This document shows positions 8,984 to 47,325 of a stretch of DNA of 64,000 nucleotides, piece by piece. Location: positions 1 through 64,000 of the forward strand of contig JAPLIB010000093.1 of NCBI GenBank assembly GCA_026389335.1. Direction: 5' to 3'. The DNA is from Cyanobacteriota bacterium. Lineage in GTDB: Bacteria > Cyanobacteriota > Cyanobacteriia > PCC-6307 > Cyanobiaceae. How positions within the stretch are numbered: the first letter of the stretch is position 1; every line of letters begins with the position of its first letter. The translations under genes and the position numbers were made by a program. The notes under the pieces are model-generated. The model was not told the DNA's origin, did not search any database, and was given only the letters and a program-made list of their open reading frames with translations.

Positions 8984-10240
8984 ATGGGACCCCCATCAGC
9001 TCGCGAGACGCTGCGCCCACCGCGCTCGGCCTATGTGCACATCCCCTTCTGCCATCGGCGCTGCTTCTACTGCGATTTCCCGGTGGTGCCCCTGGGTGAT
9101 CGGGCCGATGGCGCCGGCGGCAGCGGCAGCGCCTCGATCGCCGCCTACCTGGAGCTGCTGCAGCGCGAGATCAGCACAGCGCCGCCGGGTCCGCCCCTGT
9201 CCACCGTCTATCTGGGCGGCGGCACCCCCTCGATACTGAGCCCCGATCAGGTGGGCGCCCTGCTGATGGCCCTGACGCACCGCTATGGCCTGGCACCGGG
9301 AGCGGAGATCAGCCTGGAGATGGATCCGGCCAGTTTCGATCAGGCGCGTCTGGCTGGCTATCTGGCGGCGGGGATCAACCGCGTCAGTCTTGGGGGCCAG
9401 AGTTTCGATGACGCCGTGCTGGCGACTCTGGGGCGGCGCCATCGGCTGGCGGACCTGCTGCAGGCCACCGATTGGCTGCGGCGTGCCCAGGCCCGGGCTG
9501 AGTTGGCCAGCTGGAGCCTGGATCTGATTCAATCCCTGCCGGGGCAGGGGCTGGCCCATTGGCAGCAGCAACTGGATGCGGCCCTGGCGGAGCAGCCGCC
9601 CCACCTGTCGGTGTATGACCTGATCGTGGAGCCCGGCACCGTGTTCGAGCGCCGCCTGGGGCGGGGCGAGCTGGAGCTGCCGGATGAGGATCTGGCCGCC
9701 GATCTCATGGACCTCACCCAGCGGCAACTGAGCCAGGCTGGCTACGGCCACTATGAAATCTCCAACTACGCCCTGCCCGGCCACGCCTCCCGGCATAACC
9801 GCGTCTACTGGAGTGGCGCCGGCTGGTGGGGCTTCGGCATGGGGGCCACGGCGGCGCCCGATGGCATTCGCCAGGCGCGGCCTCGCACCCGGGAGGCCTA
9901 TGCCGCCTGGTTGGCAGCCCGGAGCGCCCCAGCCCCTGCACGGGACGCCACCGCAGGTGAGCCGGCAGCCACCCAGGGCATGGCGAGCGATGAGCGCTGG
10001 ATGGTGGGCCTGCGGCGGCGGGAAGGGGTGAATGCCAGGGAGCTGGCCGCCGCCGCCGGCCTGGACCCGTGGGAGCTGGTGGCGCTGCGTCAGGAACTGG
10101 CCGTTTTCGAGGAACGCGGCCTGTTGCTGGTGGAAGGGGATCGTTGGCGGTTGAGTGATCCAGCCGGCCTGGCCCTCAGCAATGCGGTGCTGCGGGAGCT
10201 GCTGGCCTGGTGGCCGGCTGGGACGGTCGCTGGGCGCTGA
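8984..10240 (+). CDS. hemW: Radical SAM protein HemW (heme chaperone / HemN-like, 418 aa)
   Basis: Radical SAM enzyme of the HemN/HemW family. The iron-sulfur cluster motif CxxxCxxC is seen as [13 protein letters not shown] close to the N-terminus. It is followed by [37 protein letters not shown] and [11 protein letters not shown], all family hallmarks. It has the shorter HemW form and lacks the N-terminal extension of oxygen-independent coproporphyrinogen oxidases, so heme insertion or trafficking is the likelier role. The ATG at 8984 places the start about 20 residues before the cluster, as usual; an upstream ATG at 8939 is possible. Its last 65 bp overlap the end of panB on the other strand. 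Confidence 0.93.
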
Positions 10241-11018
10241 TCCACTGGCGCAAGGCCTGCACCGCCAGACCCCGACCATCGAGCAACGGTGGCGAGAAGG
10301 GCGGTTGGCGACTGGTGAGGCCCAGCAGGTCTGCGGTGACACGCACCTGGCCATCGCAGGCCTCACCGGCGCCGATGCCGATCACGGGGATGCGCCGATC
10401 GCGGCTCAGCTCGGTGGCCAGCTCCGCCGGAATGTGTTCGAGCACCAGGGCGAAGCAGCCGACGGCCTCAAGGCGTTCCGCCTGGCGGCGCAGGCGATCC
10501 TGGGCGATCGGATCCCTGGCCTGACGGCGATACCCCAACTGATGCACCGACTGGGGGGTGAGACCGAGATGGCCCAGCACCGGAATGCCACTGCGCACCA
10601 TGCGATCAATCACCACCAGCGTTTCCGGCTCAGCGCCTTCCAGCTTGACGCCCGCCGCCGGGGCCTCCTTGAGGACGCGACCAGCGGCGACCAGGGCTTC
10701 ATCAGCACCGCATTGATAACTCAGAAACGGCAGATCGCAGATCAGCAGGGGCACGGGTCGATCATTACCGCAGCGCCACTGCTCCTCGCGCCAGGCATCA
10801 AGACCGCGACCGGCGGCGCGGCAGTGATGCAACATCTCGTCGAGGGTGACGGGCAGGGTGGTGCCGTAGCCGAGCACCGTCATCGCCAGGGAATCCCCCA
10901 CCAGGACCATGTCGGCGCCGGCTTCAGCCACCACGATCGCCGAGAGGGCATCCCAGGCGGTCAGCATCGCAATCGGCAGGCCTTCCTGTTTGCGAACGAT
11001 CAGATCAGCGGGACGCAT
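10176..11018 (-). CDS. panB: 3-methyl-2-oxobutanoate hydroxymethyltransferase (280 aa)
   Basis: First step of pantothenate synthesis: transfer of hydroxymethyl from methylene-tetrahydrofolate to 2-oxoisovalerate, giving ketopantoate. The TIM-barrel motifs are intact: [28 protein letters not shown] with the metal-binding Asp, [31 protein letters not shown] and the late [15 protein letters not shown]. The ATG at 11018 ([11 protein letters not shown]) is chosen because the family begins here; an in-frame start lies 12 codons upstream. The C-terminus is extended by about 20 Ala/Pro-rich residues that overlap the hemW coding end on the other strand. Confidence 0.95.
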
Positions 11019-36493: not shown

Positions 36494-37696
36494 TCACGCC
36501 GACGGCAAGGCCCGCTGCAGGGCAGCCAGCAGCTGGTCCACCTCAGCTGCCGTGGTGGTGAGATGGGTGCAGGCCCGCAGACAGATCGGATCGGCAAGAC
36601 TGCGCAACCAGATGGATTGGGCGCCGAGCTGCCGCACCCAATCGGCCGCCAACGGGGCCGGCATCGGGCCCTGAACTGGAGACCCCAGCACGAAGCTCAC
36701 CAAGCCCGCAGGCGGTGGTTGCTCCAGCAGGGTCTGGGCCCCGTCGATCTGCTGCAGGCCATGCCAGAGCTGCAGGCTGCGTGCACGGATGCGCTGCAGA
36801 CGGGACTGGGCATCGCCTTCGGCCTCGAGCAATTGCAGGGAGGTATCCAGACCAGCGAACAGGGGCAGACAGGAGGTGGCCACTTCAAAGCGACGGGCGT
36901 CGCGGTGGAAGGCGCTGCCGGCGTCGGTTTCGTTGCTGAGGCTGCGCCAGCCGATCAGCGTGGGGGAACTTTCGGCCAGCAGCCGCTCCGAAAGGGCGAT
37001 CGCCCCCAGGCCCTCGGGCCCGCAGCACCACTTATGGCCGGTGCAGGCGTAGATGTCGGCGGCGGCGGCGGCTTCAGCCACCGGAATCGCCCCCAGGGAC
37101 TGGGCGGCATCAACCAGCAACCAGGGCTGGCAGGGATGGGCCTGGAGCCGCTCGGCCACGGCGGCGATCGGCATCAGCTGGCCGGTGTTCCACAGCAGGT
37201 GGGAAAGCACAACCAAGCGGGTGCGGGGCGTGAGAGCGGCGTCCAGGGCCTCCAGAACGCCCACGGCTGCCACTTCGGCACTACCGCGCAGCTGCAACAC
37301 CGGCAACATGGACAACTCCAGCTGCTCCCGCCGGGCCAATTCGCGGATGCCAGCGACCACGCCAGGGTGCTCGGCGTCGCTGATCAGCAGCTGATCACCG
37401 GGCTGCCAGGGCAGGCCCCAGAGGGGTACCAGACAGGCGGTGGTGACGTTCTCACTGAAGGCCACCCGAGTCGGCGGTACGCCGAACCAGTTGGCCAACC
37501 GTTGGCGTAGCTGGTCCGTAGTGCGGGCCACAAAAGGCCAGACATCGCTGGTGAAAGGCCCCAGCTCCTGGATCGTCGTCCAGGCGGCGTTGATGGCCGC
37601 CAGCGAAGCCTGCGGCAACGGCCCCTGGCCGCCGTAGTTGAAGTAAGTCTTGTTGGCGAGGGCCGGCATCTGGGCCCGCAAGCTTTCAGGAGACAC
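36494..37696 (-). CDS. Class V aminotransferase-like PLP enzyme, cystine lyase/epimerase type (400 aa)
   Basis: PLP enzyme of the class V fold. It begins with the signature KTYFNYGGQGPLPQASLAAI, then AFSENVTTACLVPLWG, SDAEHPGV, LSHLLWNTGQLMP, LLVDAAQSLGAIPV and the PLP lysine in CTGHKWCCGPEGLGA. This form is close to the cyanobacterial cystine lyase C-DES and to isopenicillin-N-epimerase-like proteins; it differs from the IscS/SufS desulfurases. C-S lyase activity for sulfur mobilisation is the likeliest role. The start is taken as GTG at 37696; a TTG two codons upstream is possible and no ATG is suitably placed. It ends where the A/T-richer island begins. Confidence 0.85.
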   Translation of the reverse strand: MSPESLRAQMPALANKTYFNYGGQGPLPQASLAAINAAWTTIQELGPFTSDVWPFVARTTDQLRQRLANWFGVPPTRVAFSENVTTACLVPLWGLPWQPGDQLLISDAEHPGVVAGIRELARREQLELSMLPVLQLRGSAEVAAVGVLEALDAALTPRTRLVVLSHLLWNTGQLMPIAAVAERLQAHPCQPWLLVDAAQSLGAIPVAEAAAAADIYACTGHKWCCGPEGLGAIALSERLLAESSPTLIGWRSLSNETDAGSAFHRDARRFEVATSCLPLFAGLDTSLQLLEAEGDAQSRLQRIRARSLQLWHGLQQIDGAQTLLEQPPPAGLVSFVLGSPVQGPMPAPLAADWVRQLGAQSIWLRSLADPICLRACTHLTTTAAEVDQLLAALQRALPSA

Positions 37697-38513
37697 GAAC
37701 AAGTTCCAGATCAGAGGTTGATGCTGTAGTGAAAATGAGATATCCAAGAAGTGTCCAACAGATGCCGGCCAAATTTGCAAGGCTGGCTTGGATCCTGCGG
37801 CGGAGTGCCAAGAAGAATGGAGCGAACTCGGAGCGGCTGATCATGGACCACCAGCCAAGTGTAGACAGCCGAGCGACCCCCATAAAGATGATGAGGTGCT
37901 CTAGACCCAGCCGAGCCTGATGACCGAACCAGGCACCCGACAGACAACCAGGCGCTCTGCCGGCTTGAGGGAGTGCAGTCGAAGGCCAGACTGGGTCGAT
38001 AAGCAGAAAAAGTTCCAATAGCCCATGAATGCCAGGGTCAGCGAATTGACACTACAGGGATGAAGTCCTTAAAGCCTGGCTGGTGACCCAGGATCGCAAA
38101 AGCAAAGGACTGGGCTGGGCTGACTGGTAGCGCTTATTCAACCAGGGAGATAGGCTTGCTGATGTCTACTGAAAAGCGAAAAACAAAGAATAGGGCCATG
38201 GGAAGCGAGGCCGCCAGCCAACGAGTCCCACCACGTACCAGAGTGAATAGGGATGGATCCGAAGAACCATGGATCAGCCAAAATCGGTTGAGTAATGCGA
38301 CAAAGTCAATCCTAAAAGAAACCAAGAGCAGAGTCAGCAAGCCTTGCCCCAGTGGAGCCAGAGCCTGAACTCCCACGGCCAGCCATCAAGGCCAAGCACA
38401 ACAGGAAGCACATTCATGCTAAAATGGAAAAGGGAGATGTGAAGAAGCCCCGCCAAAAAAAATCAAGCCCAGCTCACCCGAAACTAAATCCATTCAACCT
38501 CCCGCATCCGTTC
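37697..38513. other. Left flank of the island: no intact gene, possible decayed membrane-protein gene on the minus strand
   Basis: Two minus-strand frames, 38376-38134 (hydrophobic, containing GQGLLTLLLVSFRIDFVALL) and 38018-37686 (containing GLEHLIIFMGVARLSTLGWW), look like pieces of one polytopic membrane protein broken by stops. No start codons with ribosome-binding sites, no family assigned. The base composition is clearly A/T-richer than upstream. The promoter for the acyl carrier protein gene should lie within the last 100 bp; ttcatgctaaaatgg near 38415 is A/T-rich but no clear -35/-10 pair can be claimed. Confidence 0.4.
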
Positions 38514-38768
38514 ATGAACGCGCAGCACAGCGAAGAAAGCCTCGAAAAACTGACAAAGCTACTGAACCGAGTAGCGGGGAAAGACCCATCGACAATTCGC
38601 CTTTCGTCAAGGTTGAACGAGGATCTGGAGTTAGAGTCGCTGGAAATGATGGAACTTCTGTTTGAAGCAGAGGATGAGTTTGGACTGAAAATAGAAATAC
38701 CAACCGAAAGCCTTGCAGACATAAAAACCGTAGAAGACATGTTAAATGCGCTCCAACCAAAGCAATAG
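38514..38768 (+). CDS. Acyl carrier protein of the type III PKS cluster (84 aa)
   Basis: Four-helix carrier protein. The 4'-phosphopantetheine serine is in LELESLEMMELLFEAEDEFG, where the usual DSL is ESL. The C-terminal helix IKTVEDMLNAL is standard. It needs activation by a phosphopantetheinyl transferase, not seen in this window. It heads the plus-strand trio ACP - ketosynthase - type III PKS, with 4 bp to the ketosynthase ATG used here. A dedicated ACP suggests that an acyl-ACP is built or tethered specifically for the polyketide synthase. The frame is open upstream to 38352, but the ACP domain starts at 38514. Confidence 0.9.
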   Translation: MNAQHSEESLEKLTKLLNRVAGKDPSTIRLSSRLNEDLELESLEMMELLFEAEDEFGLKIEIPTESLADIKTVEDMLNALQPKQ

Positions 38769-38772
38769 GGCA

Positions 38773-39984
38773 ATGGATTCAGCTGTTGCCATCACAGGTA
38801 CCGGAATCATTTGCCCTATGGGCAATGGAGCCAGCACGGTATGGGGAAATTGGCTTGATGGCACTGGAGCCATGGACAAACTCTGCGAAGAGTGGTCTGC
38901 AACGTTGAAGACGAGCCTTGTCGCACGCTGCAAGCATTTGCCGATAGAGCTGGAGCCACACCTGCTCAGGAGGCTGGACCGATACACCCAACTGGCAATG
39001 GCAGCAACTCAGCAAGCCTGGGGAGAGTGCGGGAAGCCTGAAATAAATCCGGAAAGGCTAGGGGTAGCAATTTCTTCCGGCATTGGAGGCCTTGAAACCA
39101 TTCACAATGGCACAGTAGAGCTGGAACAGAAAAAAATATTACGCGTCAATCCATATATTCTTCCCATGGCGATGCCCAACAGCGCCGCTGGACAGATCAG
39201 CATCATGATGAATGCTTCCGGTGACATCTCAGCACCAAATTCTGCCTGTGCAGGAGGAGCTGAGGCCATCACAATCGGTGCTCAGTGGATCAATGAGGGC
39301 CATGTAGATATGGCGATTGCAGGTGGGTGCGAGGCCCTAATCAACAAATTAGGCGTGTGTGCGTTTGAGGCACTAGGAGCATTATCGCCGGACAGCACAA
39401 ACCAGCCACAACCCTTTGGCCTTAATAGGAATGGATTTGTTCTGGGTGAGGGGGCTGGAGCCTTAGTACTGGAAAATGGCCAGCATGCGATCGATCGAGG
39501 TGCTTGTATCCTCGGCTGGATCCTTGGCTGGGGAAGCAGCGCTGATGCCTACCATTTGGTTGCCAGCAGACCAGATGGAGTGAACGCGAAAAGGGCAATA
39601 GAGAAAGCAATGAGAAAAGCGGGGCTGGAATTAGAGGACATCTCGCTGATCAAAGCCCATGCAACAGGAACAAAGGCAGGCGACCTGGCAGAGGCGCGCG
39701 TTCTTAGTGAGATCTGGGGAAATGTATCGAACAAGCCTACAGTCATCGCGCCAAAGTCAGAAATTGGTCACTGTATCAGCGCCTCTGGCCCGATTGAACT
39801 GATCATGGCTCTTTCGTGCCTCAAACAAGGAGTCGCGCCAGGCCTGTCACATGACTATGAACTGGATCCAATGATGACGCTACCATTTGCCGCCAAGAGC
39901 AGAGCGATTAATGGTAGCGTTGGCCTATGCAATTCATTTGGGTTTGGAGGCAAGAACCAAGTGCTGATCATCAAAAGCGCATGA
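38773..39984 (+). CDS. Beta-ketoacyl-ACP synthase, FabF/KAS II type, of the type III PKS cluster (403 aa)
   Basis: Condensing enzyme of the thiolase fold with the complete Cys-His-His triad: Cys159 in NSACAGGAEAI, His296 in KAHATGTKAGD and His333 in KSEIGHCISASG. The closing GLCNSFGFGGKNQVLIIK is the KAS glycine-rich motif. It resembles KAS II but is clearly diverged from a housekeeping copy, and its A/T-rich codons match its neighbours, not the rest of the window. The likely role is a final elongation of an acyl-ACP to provide the long-chain starter for the type III PKS. The ATG at 38773 is used; an earlier ATG at 38746 overlaps the ACP gene. Confidence 0.92.
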   Translation: MDSAVAITGTGIICPMGNGASTVWGNWLDGTGAMDKLCEEWSATLKTSLVARCKHLPIELEPHLLRRLDRYTQLAMAATQQAWGECGKPEINPERLGVAISSGIGGLETIHNGTVELEQKKILRVNPYILPMAMPNSAAGQISIMMNASGDISAPNSACAGGAEAITIGAQWINEGHVDMAIAGGCEALINKLGVCAFEALGALSPDSTNQPQPFGLNRNGFVLGEGAGALVLENGQHAIDRGACILGWILGWGSSADAYHLVASRPDGVNAKRAIEKAMRKAGLELEDISLIKAHATGTKAGDLAEARVLSEIWGNVSNKPTVIAPKSEIGHCISASGPIELIMALSCLKQGVAPGLSHDYELDPMMTLPFAAKSRAINGSVGLCNSFGFGGKNQVLIIKSA

Positions 39985-40028
39985 AGTCCCACGGAAATTG
40001 CTCACAAATCCACCAACGACACTAAAGA

Positions 40029-41141
40029 ATGCTAATCACAGCTATTGCTACCTCCACCCCTGAACAAGTCCTCACCCACAAGGAGGGGGAGTTGATGCAG
40101 CGCAAAATGTTTGCAAGACTCTCAACTGAGCCAGTCAGCGATCTGCTTAATATTCTGATCAACCATGTCTACAGAGGCGAAGATAACAAACGCCGTCACT
40201 GCGTTGCCCTGAAATACCATAAGCGCTTACTTGAAGACATCAACCCCGACGACGATAATCCTGGCACAAAAACCGAACAAAGAATGGAAATTTACGCCGA
40301 AGAAGCATTAGCCCTGACCATAAAATCCGTTAAAAAATTGCAAAATACAAAGAACAACCAGGAGTCACTTTTTTCACACATTATCTACGTATCGTGCACA
40401 GGGCAATCGGCACCAGGCATCTCATTTGACATTGCTCAGCATGTATCCCAAGACAACTCAATAAGCCTTTTGGAAATTAATTTTTATGGCGGCTGTGCAG
40501 GACTTCTATCTGGATTAAAAGTTGCCAAGGATATTGTTGATGCCAAGCCATCCAATAGGGTGTTACTATGCGCAACTGAGCTGTGCTCCCTCCACTTTAA
40601 GCCAACAAAAAGCAACGAGCAAGTCATTGTCAATTCGATATTCGCGGATGGTAGCGTTTGCCTAATCTGCGAAGGCGAAGACAATACTAAACAATCACAA
40701 GGCATAACCTCGCAGTCGTGGAGCCACATTTTGAGCAGAACCCACTTACTACCAGACACCAAGAGCATGGTTACCTGGGAGCTTGGTAGCGCAGGGTTTA
40801 AAATGGGCCTAAGCCCAGCATTACCAAAGTATATTGAGAAGAATCTAAAAGACATTGTCGAGATGATCCTAGCCCAAGAGAATCTTGAAGTTTCCAGCAT
40901 TGACAATTGGGCGATACACCCTGGCGGCCCCAAAATACTCGACGCCTGCCAGAGCGCATTGACACTCTCCGACGAGCAAGTAGCCACGAGCCGGGATATA
41001 TACAGAGATTTTGGAAATATGTCGTCATCAACTGTTGGATTCGTCCTGGAACGGATGAGATCGGAAAATAAACGTGGTTATTGTGTTGCCATCGCATTCG
41101 CCCCAGGAGTAAGATTGGAAATGGCGATACTGCACTACTGA
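40029..41141 (+). CDS. Type III polyketide synthase (chalcone/stilbene-synthase-like, 370 aa)
   Basis: Homodimeric iterative condensing enzyme that extends an acyl starter with malonyl-CoA without a carrier protein and cyclises the product. The catalytic triad is present: Cys156 in NFYGGCAGLLSGL, His297 in WAIHPGGPKI and Asn330 in FGNMSSSTVGFVLE. These correspond to Cys164, His303 and Asn336 of plant chalcone synthase. Sequence is far from plant enzymes and closer in style to bacterial alkylresorcinol/alkylpyrone synthases. The upstream ACP and ketosynthase point to a fatty-acyl starter. Established knowledge: hierridins, O-methylated alkylresorcinol-type lipids of Cyanobium, come from a type III PKS pathway. 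Confidence 0.93.
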   Translation: MLITAIATSTPEQVLTHKEGELMQRKMFARLSTEPVSDLLNILINHVYRGEDNKRRHCVALKYHKRLLEDINPDDDNPGTKTEQRMEIYAEEALALTIKSVKKLQNTKNNQESLFSHIIYVSCTGQSAPGISFDIAQHVSQDNSISLLEINFYGGCAGLLSGLKVAKDIVDAKPSNRVLLCATELCSLHFKPTKSNEQVIVNSIFADGSVCLICEGEDNTKQSQGITSQSWSHILSRTHLLPDTKSMVTWELGSAGFKMGLSPALPKYIEKNLKDIVEMILAQENLEVSSIDNWAIHPGGPKILDACQSALTLSDEQVATSRDIYRDFGNMSSSTVGFVLERMRSENKRGYCVAIAFAPGVRLEMAILHY

Positions 41142-41463
41142 TAACGATGAGAGAGCATGATCAATAGGCGATCAACAGGCAGGGGCCACCCTATTCATCG
41201 CAAAAACAATTATTCAGAGATGCTATCCAGCGAAACGAAACAACTCAACCCCTTAGTCGGTACACAAAAATAATTCTCAACAGCAAGTATCTCGCCAAAG
41301 CATTTTAATAGAACCTCGTGACGCCGAGGCCGACACCCTATCATCCCTGCCAATCATAGTATAAGCGGTAGTTGGCCCAATACAAAGCATACTGACATCA
41401 GTGATGAACAAAATATCGGACAGTGCTATGGCATCGTGAAGCAGTTCCGGAAACGAAAAGCGG
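41142..41463. other. Intergenic stretch between convergent cluster genes
   Basis: About 320 bp of A/T-rich DNA between the type III PKS and the UbiG-like methyltransferase. The minus-strand frame across 41277-41570 has no start signal and no motif. No clear terminator was found. Confidence 0.55.
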
Positions 41464-42168
41464 TCAAGACTTCGGCAAGCGGGCATGACCCGCATAAATG
41501 ACCTTAAGCGTTGGGAGCCTGCCGAAAGTGAAATCAAGCCGACGATTAAGCCCACAGGGACCAAGCCCAACGAAAGGCCCGACGATCAACCCCCTGCTGA
41601 CGAGCATCTGGGTTAACTCTGCAGGCTTCAAGAACTTGGCCGGATCATGGGTGCCCCGAGGCAGCAGCCCCAGAACATTCTCGCCTAAAGACACAAGAAC
41701 AAAGGCCGCCAACCTGCTGCGATTAACCGTATCAAATAGGAAGAAACCGCCAGGCTTCATCACGCGAACGATCTCATCAAGGACGCATTCGAGATCAGCA
41801 ACATGCTCAAGGACATCGACACACACGACACAATCAACACTTCGGTCAGCGAGAGGGATAGCCTCGCCGTTACCGAGGCGATAATCGATCACAACCCCTT
41901 GCTCACTAGCATGGGCTCTGGCAGCAAGAATGGCCGCCAAAGAGGGATCAACACCAATGACGCTTGCTCCACGCTTCAGGATCGCCTCAGACATGAAGCC
42001 ACCGCCGCAGCCCAGATCGAGAATAGTCAGGCCCTGCCAGCTCCCGACGATCTGATCAAAAAGAAACAGGCGCGCGGGCACAAGATTGGCCAACAGTCGT
42101 AGAAATCGCTGCGATCCATCCCACCAGTGAGATGCGTACGTGGTGTAAATAGATAGGTCGTTTCGCAT
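41464..42168 (-). CDS. Class I SAM methyltransferase, UbiG-like (234 aa)
   Basis: Rossmann-fold methyltransferase. Motif I is TILDLGCGGGFMSEAILKRG, motif II is around VIGVDPSLAAILAAR, post-I DCVVCVDVLEHVADLECVL and motif III VMKPGGFFLFDTVNRS. The order and the HWWD segment (YTTYASHWWDGSQRFL) near the N-terminus are those of the UbiG/Coq3 O-methyltransferases, which methylate phenolic hydroxyls of ubiquinone precursors. In this setting it is a good candidate for O-methylation of the alkylresorcinol or quinol product. It is transcribed toward the PKS gene. Confidence 0.9.
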   Translation of the reverse strand: MRNDLSIYTTYASHWWDGSQRFLRLLANLVPARLFLFDQIVGSWQGLTILDLGCGGGFMSEAILKRGASVIGVDPSLAAILAARAHASEQGVVIDYRLGNGEAIPLADRSVDCVVCVDVLEHVADLECVLDEIVRVMKPGGFFLFDTVNRSRLAAFVLVSLGENVLGLLPRGTHDPAKFLKPAELTQMLVSRGLIVGPFVGLGPCGLNRRLDFTFGRLPTLKVIYAGHARLPKS

Positions 42169-42686
42169 CAGTGTTCCCAGATCAGTGTTCCCGGATCAAC
42201 AATTGCCATCAGCACAGCCATCATCGCCGTCTTGGCCCGTCACGAGCACCAAGAAATACCTGCCAGTGTCTGGGGCTCGGAGACTGACCAGCCAAGCCGG
42301 CATACGAGCGATCGCCACCGCTAAATCAGCGGCAGCCTCAGAGCCTGGCGGTTCGCGTTGCCTTGGAGCGACTGAACGCATGGCGCAGGAACGTCAGTCA
42401 AGCCGACGTTGGATGTCAAGAGGCAAATGGAAAAGGCAGCTGTGGGCGCCTGATCCCGTTGAAGACCTACAAAGCAAAAAACAAGCCTACCTCGAGACCG
42501 TTTGATTTGGCGAGCAAGCTAGCGGAGCAGGATAACATTTTGATGACAGCAGAAAATGATTCCGGAATGGAATCGAACCGCTGCGTTACTGTAGGTGATA
42601 ATCGCTGGCTTGTGAAGGGAAATGGCATTTGTACGGTTCAGAGCTGATGCCGGCATCTCACTCTCATGGCTGGGAGGGTTGGCAAA
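42169..42686. other. Divergent intergenic stretch, probable promoter region
   Basis: About 520 bp between the start of the UbiG-like gene (minus) and the ICMT-like gene (plus). Overlapping frames are short and unconvincing. A duplicated cagtgttccc (around 42171 and 42184) is seen beside the methyltransferase start. One HIP1 palindrome lies at 42308-42315. It probably carries promoters for both flanking genes. Confidence 0.5.
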
Positions 42687-43481
42687 ATGAACAGGTTTTT
42701 TGGCTTTGTGTTCGGCTTGGGGACACAAGCTCTGTTTGCCGTCACCATCTGGTGTCTATTCTGGTTCTTGAAAGGACCATCGCTGCAGGACATTCAGCCA
42801 TCACCACTAGGACTCATCACGGCGCTCAGTATTGACGCACTTCTGGCGATGTCCTTCGCAGTACCGCATAGCATCTTGCTGATACCCTCAGTGCGGCGCA
42901 GACTGGTATCAACAAAATTCACTCCATTTTACGGTTGCTTCTACTGTGTAATCTCCTGTGCAACGCTACTACTGACGATCTTCAGCTGGCAAACCACGGC
43001 TGTGATCGCCTGGCACTGGCCGGCACCGATCGACAGCGCCATAACCGCCGCCTTCGCTATCTCCTGGGTTGCACTGATTTACAGCCTGTACCTCACGGGC
43101 CTGGGTTGGCAGACCGGGTGGACACCCTGGTTGCATTGGGCTCGCGGCCTACCACAACCCCAGCGCCAATTCGTCGAGCAGGGCGCGTACCGTGTGCTAC
43201 GCCACCCAGTTTACCTGAGTTTTCTGGGACTGATCTGGTTCACACCCCTGGTTACACTCGACAGGGCCATCTTGATCGCGATCTGGTCGGCCTATATCAT
43301 CGTCGGTAGCATCATCAAAGATGCTCGGTTGGTGCACTTCATGGGGGATACCTATCGTGATTACAAGTCCCGTGTACCTGGCTATCCGGGGGTGCGATTC
43401 GGGCCACTTGGGAGAATAGTCCACCTCGGGTCACAACGAGGAGTGCAAGCGAGGACGACAGACCCTGACGCCATTCTATAG
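42687..43481 (+). CDS. ICMT-type membrane methyltransferase, NnrU/MddA-like (264 aa)
   Basis: Polytopic membrane protein with about five hydrophobic helices and the C-terminal SAM-binding region of isoprenylcysteine carboxyl methyltransferase-like enzymes: FVEQGAYRVLRHPVYLSFLGL, then a helix and GDTYRDYKSRVPGYPG. It contains the NnrU/MddA feature AVPHSILLIPSVRRRL. A GGGAGG ribosome-binding site eight bases upstream fixes the ATG at 42687. Established precedent: B. subtilis BpsB and Streptomyces SrsB are ICMT-like enzymes that O-methylate type III PKS alkylpyrones and phenolic lipids, so this is a strong tailoring candidate for the membrane-bound lipid product. Confidence 0.88.
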   Translation: MNRFFGFVFGLGTQALFAVTIWCLFWFLKGPSLQDIQPSPLGLITALSIDALLAMSFAVPHSILLIPSVRRRLVSTKFTPFYGCFYCVISCATLLLTIFSWQTTAVIAWHWPAPIDSAITAAFAISWVALIYSLYLTGLGWQTGWTPWLHWARGLPQPQRQFVEQGAYRVLRHPVYLSFLGLIWFTPLVTLDRAILIAIWSAYIIVGSIIKDARLVHFMGDTYRDYKSRVPGYPGVRFGPLGRIVHLGSQRGVQARTTDPDAIL

Positions 43482-43763
43482 AGACGATGACGATCGGCAG
43501 GGAAGCACGCCAAGGCTAGGAAGGTAGACTGTGAATCTGATCAACATGGGCAACAGAATCGAAAACAGTTTGGTCTTATTTTGAAGGCCAGGCTCCTAGA
43601 GAATCGGAACGGAAGCCAGATGTTGTCAAGATTGTCACTGGCTTGGCGATGAAAGAGATCTGCTATTGTACGACTGCTCAGAATCAAGATGCAAGCGCAG
43701 GCGTGGATCAGGCAGCAGGATAACTGGAATATATCCAACCTCAGGAGCTAGATCCAGAATGAT

Positions 43764-44480
43764 TCACTGAGGGTTCCAAAAAACAAAATGGCCTGGGATA
43801 GCAGAATGGACGCACAACGATTGGAGCTGAGGGTCCGCTTCCACCAGAAGTGATGCCTCCTTTTTTGTCAGGCTTCTGCGAATAGAAAGACGACCATCAT
43901 CGTAGGCAAAGCTATTGCGCAAAAGCAGTTTGGCGCAGACCGAATAAAGAAAATAAGAGAAACGACTGCGTACCAAGTCGCTCATGATGCACTGCTCTCG
44001 ACAGGCAAGAACAACCAAATGCAAACAGTGAACAATCTCAGGGGTCGTGAGATGGTGAAGAAAATGATTGGAAAAGATAAAATCCCAATTGCCCTTGGGT
44101 GACTTTGAGAGAAGGGCGAGGGCATCACCCTGGTGCAGAATAATTTCTGGATAATTAACGAGGCGCTGCCGAGCAAACTCAACCACGCGGCTATCGTGAT
44201 CTATACAAGTGATAACAAGAGAGATCCGTTCCTGTCGGCACAGGTCGATTAGCCAGATAGCCAGATCACATCCTCCAGAGCCGATATCGAGCATGGTCCA
44301 CTCACGGCTGGGATCGGCTCGCATTTGCCTCAGCACATTGCGGCGCAATAGACGGCGTGAGGGCGTCATATGCTGATTAATCCACACAAACTGCTTGAGT
44401 GTATTACCCAACAACTGGCCCGAAGAATCGGGGCAATCCATGAGCTCTGGATCGGTGGAACGCTGTGAAAAATCAAGCAT
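43764..44480 (-). CDS. Class I SAM methyltransferase, PKS-cluster type (238 aa)
   Basis: Rossmann-fold methyltransferase with motif I in TMLDIGSGGCDLAIWLIDL, an acidic CIDHDSRVVEFARQRL and the FIFSNHFLHHLTTPEIV segment. Proteins of this pattern commonly sit beside type III PKS and FAD-dependent oxidoreductase genes in bacteria. The start overlaps the end of the UbiE-like gene by 8 bp, so the three minus-strand genes (FAD enzyme, UbiE-like, this one) form an operon read away from 46.5 kb. Target atom unknown; O- or C-methylation of the aromatic ring is likely. Confidence 0.85.
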   Translation of the reverse strand: MLDFSQRSTDPELMDCPDSSGQLLGNTLKQFVWINQHMTPSRRLLRRNVLRQMRADPSREWTMLDIGSGGCDLAIWLIDLCRQERISLVITCIDHDSRVVEFARQRLVNYPEIILHQGDALALLSKSPKGNWDFIFSNHFLHHLTTPEIVHCLHLVVLACREQCIMSDLVRSRFSYFLYSVCAKLLLRNSFAYDDGRLSIRRSLTKKEASLLVEADPQLQSLCVHSAIPGHFVFWNPQ

Positions 44481-45252
44481 AAGGAGCCGACTCCAATTCT
44501 GAGGAGGGTTTAATTACGGTAATCATCTCTAGGGTTCCAAAGTAAAAACGACGGCTGCAGACAGGCAAGAAGCCAATTTCAGATAACGTCTGCCGCAACT
44601 CGCGGCGATCAGGAAACTGCCAAAGAGACTTGGCAATATACGCATACACAGAGGGCTGGCGATGGAGCAGCAGTCCCCAAAAGGATCCCCAGACAAACAA
44701 CACACAATAGGCAAGACGTTGCCACAGCCAGTGTGGTGATTTCGAAAAATCAAGAAAGGCTGCAGTACCACCGGGACGCAACACACGATAAATCTCCTGC
44801 AATGCCACATTCAGCGCAGGGGCGTTCCTCAATGCATAGCTTCCGGTAACGATGTCAACACTGGCTGAAGGAAAAGGCAACTGATGCATATCACCGAGTT
44901 CAAGCCTGACATTGGAGTGGCGATTCCTGGCCCGAGCGATCGTCAACATTTCCGCCGTCAAGTCAAGTCCACAGACGCTGCCCTGCGGATAGCGCTGCGC
45001 CAGGGCAAAGGCGACATCGCCAGTACCACAGGCGAGATCGAGACACACCGGGGTGGGTAAGGCTGACGATGGCCCCTCCCCAGGCAAGGAGTTGATCAGG
45101 GTCCGCTTCCAAGCCTGATCGCGTCCCAGAGAAAGCGCCCGGGTGACAAAGTCGTAACGGCGAGCAACCTCAGCAAACAGCAATTCATTGTATTCACGCT
45201 TCGCTGCAGGAATGCGCAGGAAGTCGGCCTGATCAGATGGCAACGGGGACAT
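44473..45252 (-). CDS. UbiE/MenG-type SAM methyltransferase (259 aa)
   Basis: Methyltransferase of the UbiE/COQ5 family. It has FAEVARRYDFVTRALSLGRD near the N-terminus, VCLDLACGTGDVAFALAQRYP (motif I), GLDLTAEMLTIARARN, DIVTGSYALRNAP and RVLRPGGTAAFLDFSKSP, followed by the family end with the ETFGF-like ISEIGFLP. UbiE/MenG enzymes C-methylate quinone rings, so in this cluster it may C-methylate the alkylated ring, or it could be the organism's phylloquinone/plastoquinone enzyme that has been drawn into the operon. The ATG at 45252 is used since the upstream frame is shared with the FAD gene on another frame. Confidence 0.88.
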   Translation of the reverse strand: MSPLPSDQADFLRIPAAKREYNELLFAEVARRYDFVTRALSLGRDQAWKRTLINSLPGEGPSSALPTPVCLDLACGTGDVAFALAQRYPQGSVCGLDLTAEMLTIARARNRHSNVRLELGDMHQLPFPSASVDIVTGSYALRNAPALNVALQEIYRVLRPGGTAAFLDFSKSPHWLWQRLAYCVLFVWGSFWGLLLHRQPSVYAYIAKSLWQFPDRRELRQTLSEIGFLPVCSRRFYFGTLEMITVIKPSSELESAPYA

Positions 45253-45296
45253 GGGAAAGGGGAAGTGAGGGGAGCATCGGCTGATTTCCTGGGTGA

Positions 45297-46469
45297 CTAA
45301 CGTGGAACGGAGGTCAAGATGTGGGGGCGATTGAGCCAGAGAATGAAAGGCCTGGCCAGAAAGGGCAGATGACCCAGCAGTGTCACATTCAGTTCTGTAA
45401 GGCGTTGGTTCCGCAAGCTCCGCGTCACCAGTCGACAAAGACGCATTCGGCCGCGCAACAATCGCTTGCGCTCTGCAATCCAGCGTCCTGGCAGATCTTT
45501 GCTGTAGTTCCTGGCGGCCTGATGGGCAATGGGTGCGACGGATGCGCCTGAAGCAAGCGCCCATGCCATACCCTCACCGGTGAAGGGCTCGATATATCCT
45601 GCCGCATCGCCCACAAAAAAGATGCGGTGTCCCGCAGCTGGCAATGTCTGGCATGATAGTGGGGGAGTACCCTGCCACTTGAGTTCGCCGACTCCTTCGA
45701 ATCTCGGTAGAGCTGATTGCTGGAGAATGCGCTGCACCGTACCTCCCAAGCCAGAGCGCCTGATGGCCGCCGGATCGAGCGAGGCGGCGATTTCGATGTG
45801 ACCGTCTTCCACCTGCAGGCTGCCGACATAACCATCGCGACCAATTGCCATCTGAATCGTGCCGGGTTTGTAACCTTTGGGAACGAAAGTCGTGGCTGCC
45901 GACACGCCAATGCGCGAATGAGATTGGATAACCCTGGTACAGCCTGGGGTCTCCCGCGCTATCCCACCCGTGAGCCCATCGGCAGCAACGACTATCCGAG
46001 TGCTGATCTCGACATCGTTGTCCCCACAAATCAGCCGCAATCGACAACGCTCCACGTCATTATCGAGCAAATGCACTTCGGTACCCAGCAGGAGCGACGC
46101 ACCTGCGGCCATCGCCTCGTCTGACAACTGGACATCCAGCCAGTGGCGGGAGAGAGCTGCTCCCGTGGGGAGTGGCAGATAGGCCTGACGCCGGCCCGCT
46201 GACACGAAGACGCCGCGGACTGGTGGCGCGTCACCAGCCACAAGTAAGTGGGTGAGATCCAGCTGGGCAAGGGTCGCCAGGGCGTTGGCATTGAGAAAAC
46301 AGCCACACACTTTGCGACGCGGAAAAACGGCCTTGTCCACGAGAAGAACTCTGCTGCCCAAGCGAGCAGCCTCCCGCGCCGCAATCGACCCCGATACTCC
46401 GGCACCGATCACGACGATGTCCCAGATATCCCGGCAGGCATCATGGATGGAGATTTTTCTCCCGGCCAT
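45297..46469 (-). CDS. FAD-dependent oxidoreductase/monooxygenase, geranylgeranyl-reductase family (390 aa)
   Basis: Flavoprotein of the p-hydroxybenzoate-hydroxylase fold. The N-terminal dinucleotide motif is DIVVIGAGVSGSIAAREAAR, followed by KVCGCFLNANAL (typical of the geranylgeranyl-reductase group), VVAADGLTGGIARE and the second FAD motif IFFVGDAAGYIEPFTGEGM. It is the first gene of the minus-strand operon. By comparison with SrsC in Streptomyces (a flavoprotein that hydroxylates the alkylresorcinol), it may oxidise the ring to a hydroxyquinol or quinone. Reduction of an acyl chain is the alternative. Confidence 0.88.
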   Translation of the reverse strand: MAGRKISIHDACRDIWDIVVIGAGVSGSIAAREAARLGSRVLLVDKAVFPRRKVCGCFLNANALATLAQLDLTHLLVAGDAPPVRGVFVSAGRRQAYLPLPTGAALSRHWLDVQLSDEAMAAGASLLLGTEVHLLDNDVERCRLRLICGDNDVEISTRIVVAADGLTGGIARETPGCTRVIQSHSRIGVSAATTFVPKGYKPGTIQMAIGRDGYVGSLQVEDGHIEIAASLDPAAIRRSGLGGTVQRILQQSALPRFEGVGELKWQGTPPLSCQTLPAAGHRIFFVGDAAGYIEPFTGEGMAWALASGASVAPIAHQAARNYSKDLPGRWIAERKRLLRGRMRLCRLVTRSLRNQRLTELNVTLLGHLPFLARPFILWLNRPHILTSVPR

Positions 46470-47325
46470 AGAGATGGTGCGAATCGGCGATCTACCAATA
46501 TTATGTCAGAGCCTTCACGGCACTGACGTTCATCCTCGTTTATGAACGAACAGACAGAGAAGCTACCATCCATGCCCATGGAGCCATCATGTCCATAGCC
46601 TAGACCAAGTCATTGCTGCAGAAACAACAAAGAAATAGTCGACAGCAAGTTCGCTAAGGGCAGGACCTCAAGCGACATCTCTGCCATTTTTGATATATCG
46701 GCGCCAGATTGGCAATGCCACCCTTATTCCCAGTAGTTTTTTATTCTTTGATTTCTGCAACCTGGCTTGCGCTAGCCCTGCTGAGTGGAGCTTTACCTTT
46801 GCTCAAGTCGCTTGAAGTGACGCGATGAGTGCTGGGCACGAAGAGGTTGACGCCAGCTTTGCGCTGCTCTCGTTAGCAGAGTTGATTTTCCGCATAAAGC
46901 CCAGACCATGCTCACCACCTGAGATCATCACAATGCGATCGATCACTACTCTTTGGGATTATTTCTTCAAGACTAATTTCTTGAGCCAAATCCCGGCACT
47001 GGACATTTGCTAGCCATGCAACTTAAGAACTTATCTTAAAAAGTCAAGACTTTCTTTTCAGTATTTTGTAGCAATTAATTCGGCAATGCCGGCCTCTGCA
47101 ATGACTGTTCGTTTGTTGGCTTGGGTGATCCAATCAGCCACCTCCCCCGCCTGGATAGCGGCCATGCTCTCGGTGGCGCCTGGTCGAGCCCGGACTCAAA
47201 CCAGGAAATCGGGCCGAACCATCCCAGCCAACAACAGCCGCTGGGCTGATCGCCTGAGGGATCTGGGGAGTTCGCCAGTCGCGGGGAGCCAGCACCGCAG
47301 ACTGCAGCCTGGCCCTCCAAGAGGC
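46470..47325. other. Right flank of the island: A/T-rich, no supported gene
   Basis: Upstream of the FAD gene the DNA is strikingly A/T-rich (for example around 46690-46800 and 47010-47080), then returns to high GC near 47100. A plus-strand frame at 46825-47013 has no motif. The stretch should hold the promoter of the minus-strand operon. No tRNA, integrase or repeat that would mark an insertion site was seen. Confidence 0.5.

Follow-up and report, generated by a model that had tools for sequence, protein, structure and literature searches.

A candidate type III polyketide synthase island for methylated phenolic lipids in a member of the Cyanobiaceae

Is the type III polyketide synthase (PKS) gene group of this Cyanobiaceae genome a hierridin cluster like that of its relatives, or does it encode a different phenolic-lipid pathway? 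The window analysed here comprises 64,000 nucleotides (positions 1 to 64,000 of contig JAPLIB010000093.1, assembly GCA_026389335.1), and the PKS gene lies in it among eight intact open reading frames (ORFs) between 38514 and 46469. An initial annotation had proposed a hierridin-like phenolic-lipid pathway made up of eight enzyme kinds within 8 kb; all of these ORFs were found where it placed them, and their families were matched by Pfam and NCBIfam models. We favour, with moderate confidence, the reading that the genes belong to an acquired island of 9.65 kb that encodes a composite, enlarged hidABC-type alkylresorcinol/alkylquinone pathway with its own supply of acyl groups on an acyl carrier protein (acyl-ACP). 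This reading draws on the gene content, the insertion, the intact catalytic residues of the PKS and the recurrence of ICMT (isoprenylcysteine carboxyl methyltransferase)-type, UbiG, UbiE, HidA and HidB homologues beside type III PKSs in other phyla.

The insert and its genes

The island and its genes are as follows.

37673–47324, genomic insert (island) with limits set by the loss of sister-genome homology; it separates a conserved class-V-aminotransferase-like gene from the katG side
38514–38768, plus strand, acyl carrier protein (ACP), 84 aa (PF00550, 34.2 bits)
38773–39984, plus strand, FabF-like ketosynthase (KS), 403 aa (PF00109/PF02801)
40029–41141, plus strand, type III PKS, 370 aa (PF00195/PF02797)
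41464–42168, minus strand, UbiG-like S-adenosylmethionine (SAM) methyltransferase, 234 aa (TIGR01983)
42666–43481, plus strand, ICMT/NnrU-type integral-membrane methyltransferase, 271 aa, with an RHPVY motif (PF07298)
43764–44480, minus strand, HidA-like SAM methyltransferase, 238 aa (PRK06202 family)
44473–45252, minus strand, UbiE-like (C-)methyltransferase, about 259 aa (TIGR01934)
45297–46469, minus strand, HidB-like FAD-dependent oxidoreductase, 390 aa (PF01494, GG-reductase-like)

DNA homology to sister genomes ends at 37672 and restarts at 47325/47326, which delimits an insert of about 9.65 kb that is not present at the same site in two sister genomes, G015 and G011. G015 has about 100 bp at the insert site, with the aminotransferase-like gene 87% identical and the homology then running on into katG (92%); G011 has about 95 bp there, with a right-hand homology of 324 bp and no katG in the fetched stretch. 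The region that differs from the sisters extends beyond the eight genes at both ends, and about 0.85 kb at each end of the insert (37673–38513 and 46470–47324) has no assigned gene. The GC content of the insert is 52.4% compared with 65.8% in the remainder of the window, and GC at third codon positions is 0.50–0.64 across the eight cluster genes and 0.77–0.83 in five flanking genes, in agreement with the composition and codon use unlike the flanks that had been noted before. This low-GC stretch is best read as a horizontally acquired insert. No exact direct or inverted repeats over 9–10 bp were found across the two 0.6-kb end regions, no tRNA was found in the insert, and there was no integrase or transposase among the eight cluster genes.

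Contamination of the assembly was ruled out, because the sequence on either side belongs to the genus and is 85–91% identical in DNA to that of G015. An origin of the entire island in a planctomycete, to which the ICMT-type and FAD enzymes point, was considered but not adopted, because the approximately unbiased (AU) test did not reject a grouping of the FAD enzyme with cyanobacterial hid proteins (p 0.50) and because the PKS could not be placed. The tree of the FAD enzyme comprised 85 of 106 rows; a second copy of the window sequence was left out, as were 20 rows that came from loci L002–L046. It was also considered whether the island had replaced the hid locus of the genus. In the window's genome, glyS lies beside a chlP-like gene and no hid gene is shown in that region; hidC adjoins glyS in 10 of 19 same-genus loci examined (flanks of about 1.5 kb) and in neither of the two nearest sisters, and the glyS site therefore provides no clean test of replacement.

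The ACP, KS and PKS genes follow one another in the same orientation, separated by about 4 bp (ACP–KS) and 44 bp (KS–PKS), and the minus-strand trio reads from the FAD enzyme through the UbiE-like to the HidA-like gene. The KS probably starts at the ATG at 38773 rather than at 38746, where the ORF opens, and the UbiE-like enzyme is read as starting at the ATG at 45252, so that the listed ORF of 363 aa appears over-long. Two of the methyltransferases passed the cut-offs of their models: the UbiG-like enzyme that of TIGR01983 (147.5 bits, cut-off 102.95), a match that implies no ubiquinone role, and the UbiE-like enzyme that of TIGR01934 (UbiE/MenG; 166 bits, cut-off 158.35). The best NCBIfam match of the KS was fabF at 354.5 bits, under the cut-off of 493.75; the HidA-like methyltransferase (PRK06202, 161.2 bits) and the FAD enzyme (GG-reductase subfamily, 120.6 bits) were likewise under their cut-offs of 243 and 158.8, respectively. 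The label ICMT-like used earlier proved loose: the Pfam ICMT model PF04140 gave 18.1 bits, which fails the gathering score of 24, and NCBIfam MddA gave 81.2 bits, under its cut-off of 270, but the NnrU model PF07298 was passed (25.6 bits, cut-off 24.7) and the RHP[VI]Y motif was kept in all ten aligned rows, the window protein counted. The AlphaFold2 model of this enzyme had a mean predicted local distance difference test (pLDDT) score of 80.4 and a weak top fold match to the ICMT 5v7p (E 0.03), and its search against solved structures gave no match. Elsewhere in the same genome are a second UbiE/MenG-like gene, 35% identical to the cluster UbiE, and an apparent housekeeping FabF, 36% identical to the cluster KS, both the MenG and the FabF labels being by similarity.

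The type III PKS and known phenolic-lipid systems

The PKS is a type III enzyme by its PF00195/PF02797 matches above cut-off, its aligned catalytic triad and its chalcone synthase (CHS)-like fold. The initial annotation had identified Cys156, His297 and Asn330, and these residues are present and common to all 141 aligned homologues of a 142-row alignment. Met259 occupies, by our own mapping, the gatekeeper position of Phe265 in CHS; Met is found there in 132 of the 141 homologues, and a Met gatekeeper has been reported for HidC-clade enzymes (PMC8086630). The AlphaFold2 model had a pLDDT of 91.2, and all 50 Foldseek matches listed belong to the type III PKS family, plant chalcone- and stilbene-synthase-like enzymes among them.

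The PKS has no close relatives in the collections searched. The window's genome yielded no type III PKS besides this one; 25 of 36 same-genus genomes contain one (E <= 1e-30) that is 32–40% identical to the window PKS, and the best other PKS among 388 genomes of the class, its own included, was 39% identical. A profile search of genome contigs gave, among the matches listed, a best full-length match of 37% (uncultured Schlesneria) and a best partial match of 40%; a single-protein search of genome contigs found no close homologue, and plasmid and phage searches found no close relative. Two contigs listed in IMG/VR (L130 and L131) contain distant loci with related type III PKSs of 34–35% identity. 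Removal of duplicate rows and of matches covering fewer than 240 query residues left 142 rows for the trees, and 48 of these were chosen by hand for a more careful tree; L171 and L098 are one locus reached twice, and the labels 'Cyanobacteria', 'picocyanobacteria' and 'Synechococcus/Cyanobium-like' were taken from the named records with which the genomes cluster. In the careful tree, the window PKS groups with hid-type enzymes of planctomycetes and cyanobacteria in a clade of 36 rows (93/97, not starred); in both trees it lies outside the cyanobacterial HidC clade, but on a very long branch, and the AU test allows its grouping with that clade.

The island shares HidA-, HidB- and HidC-type genes and the Met gatekeeper with the hidABC hierridin cluster of Cyanobium sp. 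LEGE 06113 and with hierridin-like clusters (PMC8086630). It is, however, not the usual hidABC cluster of the genus. The three homologues that stand together on the island are distant from those of same-class hid loci (HidA about 22–32%, HidB 25–40% and HidC 31–40% identity, thus at most about 40%), and the island adds ACP, KS, UbiG-, UbiE- and ICMT-like genes. Gene order and strands also differ: hid clusters are ordered hidA>hidB>hidC or hidC>hidA>hidB (PMC8086630), whereas the island carries the PKS on the plus strand and the FAD, UbiE and methyltransferase genes on the minus strand.

The same HidABC-like trio is shared with the methyltransferase–oxidoreductase–type III PKS operons of Planctomycetota (PMC10896814), whose proteins are 48–55% identical to cyanobacterial hid proteins (PMC10896814). 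Planctomycete PKS loci with a neighbouring ICMT-type gene encode an enzyme similar to that of the island (38–53%) but, unlike the island, the loci searched contained no ACP or KS. Planctomycete type III PKSs gave alkylresorcinols in C. glutamicum, which were methylated once, probably on carbon, when the G. maris methyltransferase and oxidoreductase were added; hierridin B itself is a hydroxylated, O-methylated pentadecylresorcinol derivative (PMC10896814). In Streptomyces griseus, the srsABC genes for a PKS, an ICMT-type methyltransferase and a monooxygenase methylate and hydroxylate alkylresorcinols, and SrsB has been called an isoprenylcysteine carboxyl methyltransferase (PMC6669644). The island has the same kinds of genes, although srsABC comprises three genes only and the likeness is one of gene kind, the Pfam ICMT score of the island enzyme being under cut-off.

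The cylindrocyclophane type I/III hybrids (CylB ACP, CylD/CylH and CylI) provide a precedent for a type III PKS fed by a stand-alone ACP and by condensing enzymes upstream of it (PMC8086630). The feeder there is a type I PKS, whereas the island has a single stand-alone FabF-like KS, no type I PKS modules as in (7.7)paracyclophane hybrids, and no CylC- or CylK-like gene among its eight. CylI can take ACP-bound substrates, and HidC has been proposed to start from acyl-ACP (PMC8086630). Away from the island, contigs C10, C28 and C66 of the same genome (L140–L143) contain ORFs of 1552–2543 aa with ketosynthase-like stretches, which are apparently type I PKSs.

Recurrent neighbours of type III PKSs in other phyla

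Conservation of the methyltransferases without the PKS, which the initial annotation had named as evidence that would count against its proposal, was examined for the ICMT-type enzyme, and the opposite was found in Planctomycetota. Homologues (38–53% identity) occurred in 10 of 392 Planctomycetota genomes, and all ten lay less than 3.6 kb from a type III PKS, measured from lower to lower coordinate. The linkage was 9 of 9 without genome G424, which had been picked as the search centre because a PKS is present; there are fewer than ten independent cases, since several of the ten genomes are near relatives. In the window's own class, on the other hand, the ICMT-type enzyme had one weak homologue (26%) among 375 other genomes, and the 14 kb fetched for that locus contained no PKS.

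A YceI gene lay near the ICMT gene in all ten planctomycete loci and a CMAS-like methyltransferase in eight; in these eight (L054 and L166–L172) a YceI, CMAS-like methyltransferase and ICMT-type group adjoins a hid-type PKS. Used as a query against the window, the CMAS-like methyltransferase gave a weak match, to the UbiG-like gene only. The text of PMC10896814 does not contain the words 'isoprenylcysteine' and 'YceI', and it mentions a lipid/isoprenoid-binding protein beside two methyltransferases for one strain. The two remaining loci (L173 and L174) have the gene order PKS–YceI–UbiG–ICMT, and their UbiG proteins are 36% identical to that of the window and pass the same model cut-off.

Related PKSs (E <= 1e-25) were found in 4 of 101 genomes of the Dependentiae, the phylum of the metagenome-assembled genome L112. 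In three of these four PKS loci, UbiE homologues (44–48% identity) lay near PKS, methyltransferase and weakly similar FAD genes (two of three without the locus that had prompted the search). Further genes intervene between UbiE and the PKS, methyltransferase and FAD genes in L230, and L231 has no UbiE homologue; in L229, a DAO-type FAD oxidoreductase follows UbiE (9673–10968). The wider set of 85 best-scoring type III PKS loci (L047–L131) comprised 3 plasmid, 80 genome (the best 80 of at least 593 matched stretches) and 2 viral loci, several of them short-flanked; HidA-like genes (>= 45 bits) occurred at 51 of them and HidB-like genes at 66.

These results suggest that UbiE, UbiG and ICMT/NnrU-type enzymes are recurrent partners of type III PKSs, at least in Planctomycetota and Dependentiae. 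A search of the literature (titles and abstract openings) found nothing that links UbiE or Dependentiae with type III PKSs, or UbiG with alkylresorcinol.

Proposed pathway and alternatives

By analogy with hierridin B, the planctomycete alkylresorcinols and srsABC, the simplest reading of the island is acyl-ACP supply, ring formation, FAD-dependent hydroxylation, and C- and O-methylation; every reaction, the order of the reactions, the chain length and the product are inferred. The private ACP and FabF-like KS would assemble a fatty acyl chain and keep it bound, thereby setting it apart from the housekeeping pool. The type III PKS would take the acyl thioester, add malonyl units and close a resorcinol ring, which the HidB-like FAD enzyme may hydroxylate to a hydroquinone. 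The UbiE-like enzyme is the candidate for C-methylation, and the UbiG-like, HidA-like and membrane ICMT-type enzymes, the last as proposed for SrsB, are candidates for O-methylation. The predicted product is a multiply methylated long-chain alkyl-hydroquinone or alkylquinone located in the membrane.

Several observations weigh against this pathway. The cluster genes are split between both strands, which requires at least two transcripts. One residue is inserted directly before the catalytic Gly-Cys of the PKS, in the window only (1 of 142 rows), and insertion at the nucleophile means that its activity may differ or be lost. The end branch of the window PKS is the longest in the 48-row tree (5.08, median 0.63). 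In the quick 142-row tree the PKS falls outside the hid-type group of 115 rows (96, starred) and shares an open fork with L112, an enzyme from Dependentiae. Its union with cyanobacterial HidC (p 0.51) and its union with L050 and L053 (p 0.23) both survive the AU test; its placement is unsettled. The top Foldseek matches were a M. marinum type III PKS and PKS18, the latter an alkylpyrone synthase (PMC8086630). The PKSs of L173, L174 (both 27–28%) and the Dependentiae are 27–35% identical to that of the window, and L173, L174 and L112 have PKSs that fall outside the hid-type clade, so that the UbiG and UbiE linkages are to more distant PKSs. YceI, constant near the planctomycete ICMT genes, was not found in the window. 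Finally, no ACP or KS lay beside the PKS at any of the 85 loci, and the link of the ACP–KS pair to the PKS therefore comes from adjacency and strand in one genome.

This last point underlies one of the two strongest alternatives, namely that the island holds two unrelated modules and that the ACP–KS pair supplies an acyl chain for a lipid or capsule, as its picocyanobacterial relatives may. The nearest KS relatives occur in ten genomes of three other genera of the family (g32, g33 and g37), with 39–42% identity and E values of 2.9e-80 or better; the remaining matches listed were 37% identical or less, and relatives on two plasmids gave no informative neighbourhood. Five of these loci were fetched (L224–L228), and a related GNAT gene lay upstream of the KS in all five and an ACP directly upstream in four (none was detected in L228). 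At L224, the one locus scanned with Pfam and NCBIfam, the GNAT resembles the acyltransferase part of the ornithine-lipid synthase OlsF, and the KS has capsule and polysaccharide-export genes as neighbours. This GNAT–ACP–KS unit of other picocyanobacterial genera is perhaps the maker of a lipid anchor. The presumed phosphopantetheine Ser42 of the window ACP stands in ESL, compared with DSL in four aligned related picocyanobacterial ACPs; in the KS, Cys, His, His and Lys motifs were read by eye. No type III PKS was matched in the five 16-kb regions, which favours separate modules, but the insert showed no recognisable GNAT or capsule gene, and the three genes stand head to tail on one strand of a single foreign insert. 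Separate modules are an unlikely explanation that deserves to be taken seriously. The neighbourhoods of the related pairs suggest that such a pair may provide acyl-ACP dedicated to a lipid, and that on the island it has come to precede a type III PKS.

The other strong alternative, which we regard as rather unlikely, is that the PKS closes a tri- or tetraketide to a lactone and that the substrate of the methyltransferases is a pyrone, as in bpsAB of B. subtilis, where bpsA-bpsB yields triketide pyrones with small amounts of alkylresorcinol (PMC5686519). The Foldseek matches and the best phmmer matches (Steely1 and pks18) point in this direction, as does the exclusion from the hid-type group in the quick tree. 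However, type III PKS fold matches do not tell the two ring closures apart, the careful tree joins the PKS with hid-type enzymes, whose Met gatekeeper it shares, and a ring hydroxylase with UbiE/UbiG-type methyltransferases would make better sense on a phenol.

A more speculative version of the alkylresorcinol pathway, which we consider improbable, sees the product as a quinone mimic. The alkylresorcinol would be converted by the UbiE-, UbiG- and HidB-like enzymes to a methylated, methoxylated benzoquinol with a fatty tail in place of the isoprenoid and would act as a redox-active membrane lipid; the ACP and KS would hand over a possibly beta-keto acyl chain, and the insertion and long branch of the PKS would be adaptations to an ACP-bound or beta-keto starter.

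It is quite improbable that the island is an ordinary hidABC cluster that has drifted and been rearranged, with the other five genes as passengers. All three hid-like genes are there, and the AU tests allow both the PKS and the FAD enzyme to group with cyanobacterial hid proteins, but the identities are below the planctomycete–cyanobacterial range given above. Moreover, the ICMT-type gene is nearly absent from other genomes of the class, and three of the five extra genes look like partners because they recur beside type III PKSs in other phyla. Decay of the PKS or of the entire insert is no better a candidate, since the long branch, the residue beside the nucleophile and the gene-less ends are set against eight intact ORFs, conserved catalytic residues and a confidently modelled fold.

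The initial interpretation probably named the right class of pathway but is wrong if taken to mean a true hierridin cluster: a phenolic-lipid gene set of the alkylresorcinol class was supported as a gene set, and so was the idea that additional methyltransferases and an ACP–KS pair of its own make the cluster a new variant. UbiE and UbiG are usually filed under quinone biosynthesis, and their linkage to type III PKSs suggests that they are recurrent partners of these enzymes, at least in Planctomycetota and Dependentiae. From such gene linkages, a rule can be drawn for spotting phenolic-lipid clusters in other phyla. The recurrent UbiE, UbiG and ICMT linkage together with an ACP–KS feeder is unusual and testable, and the island is small enough to be expressed whole, which would allow a direct test of whether a stand-alone ACP–KS pair feeds a type III PKS.

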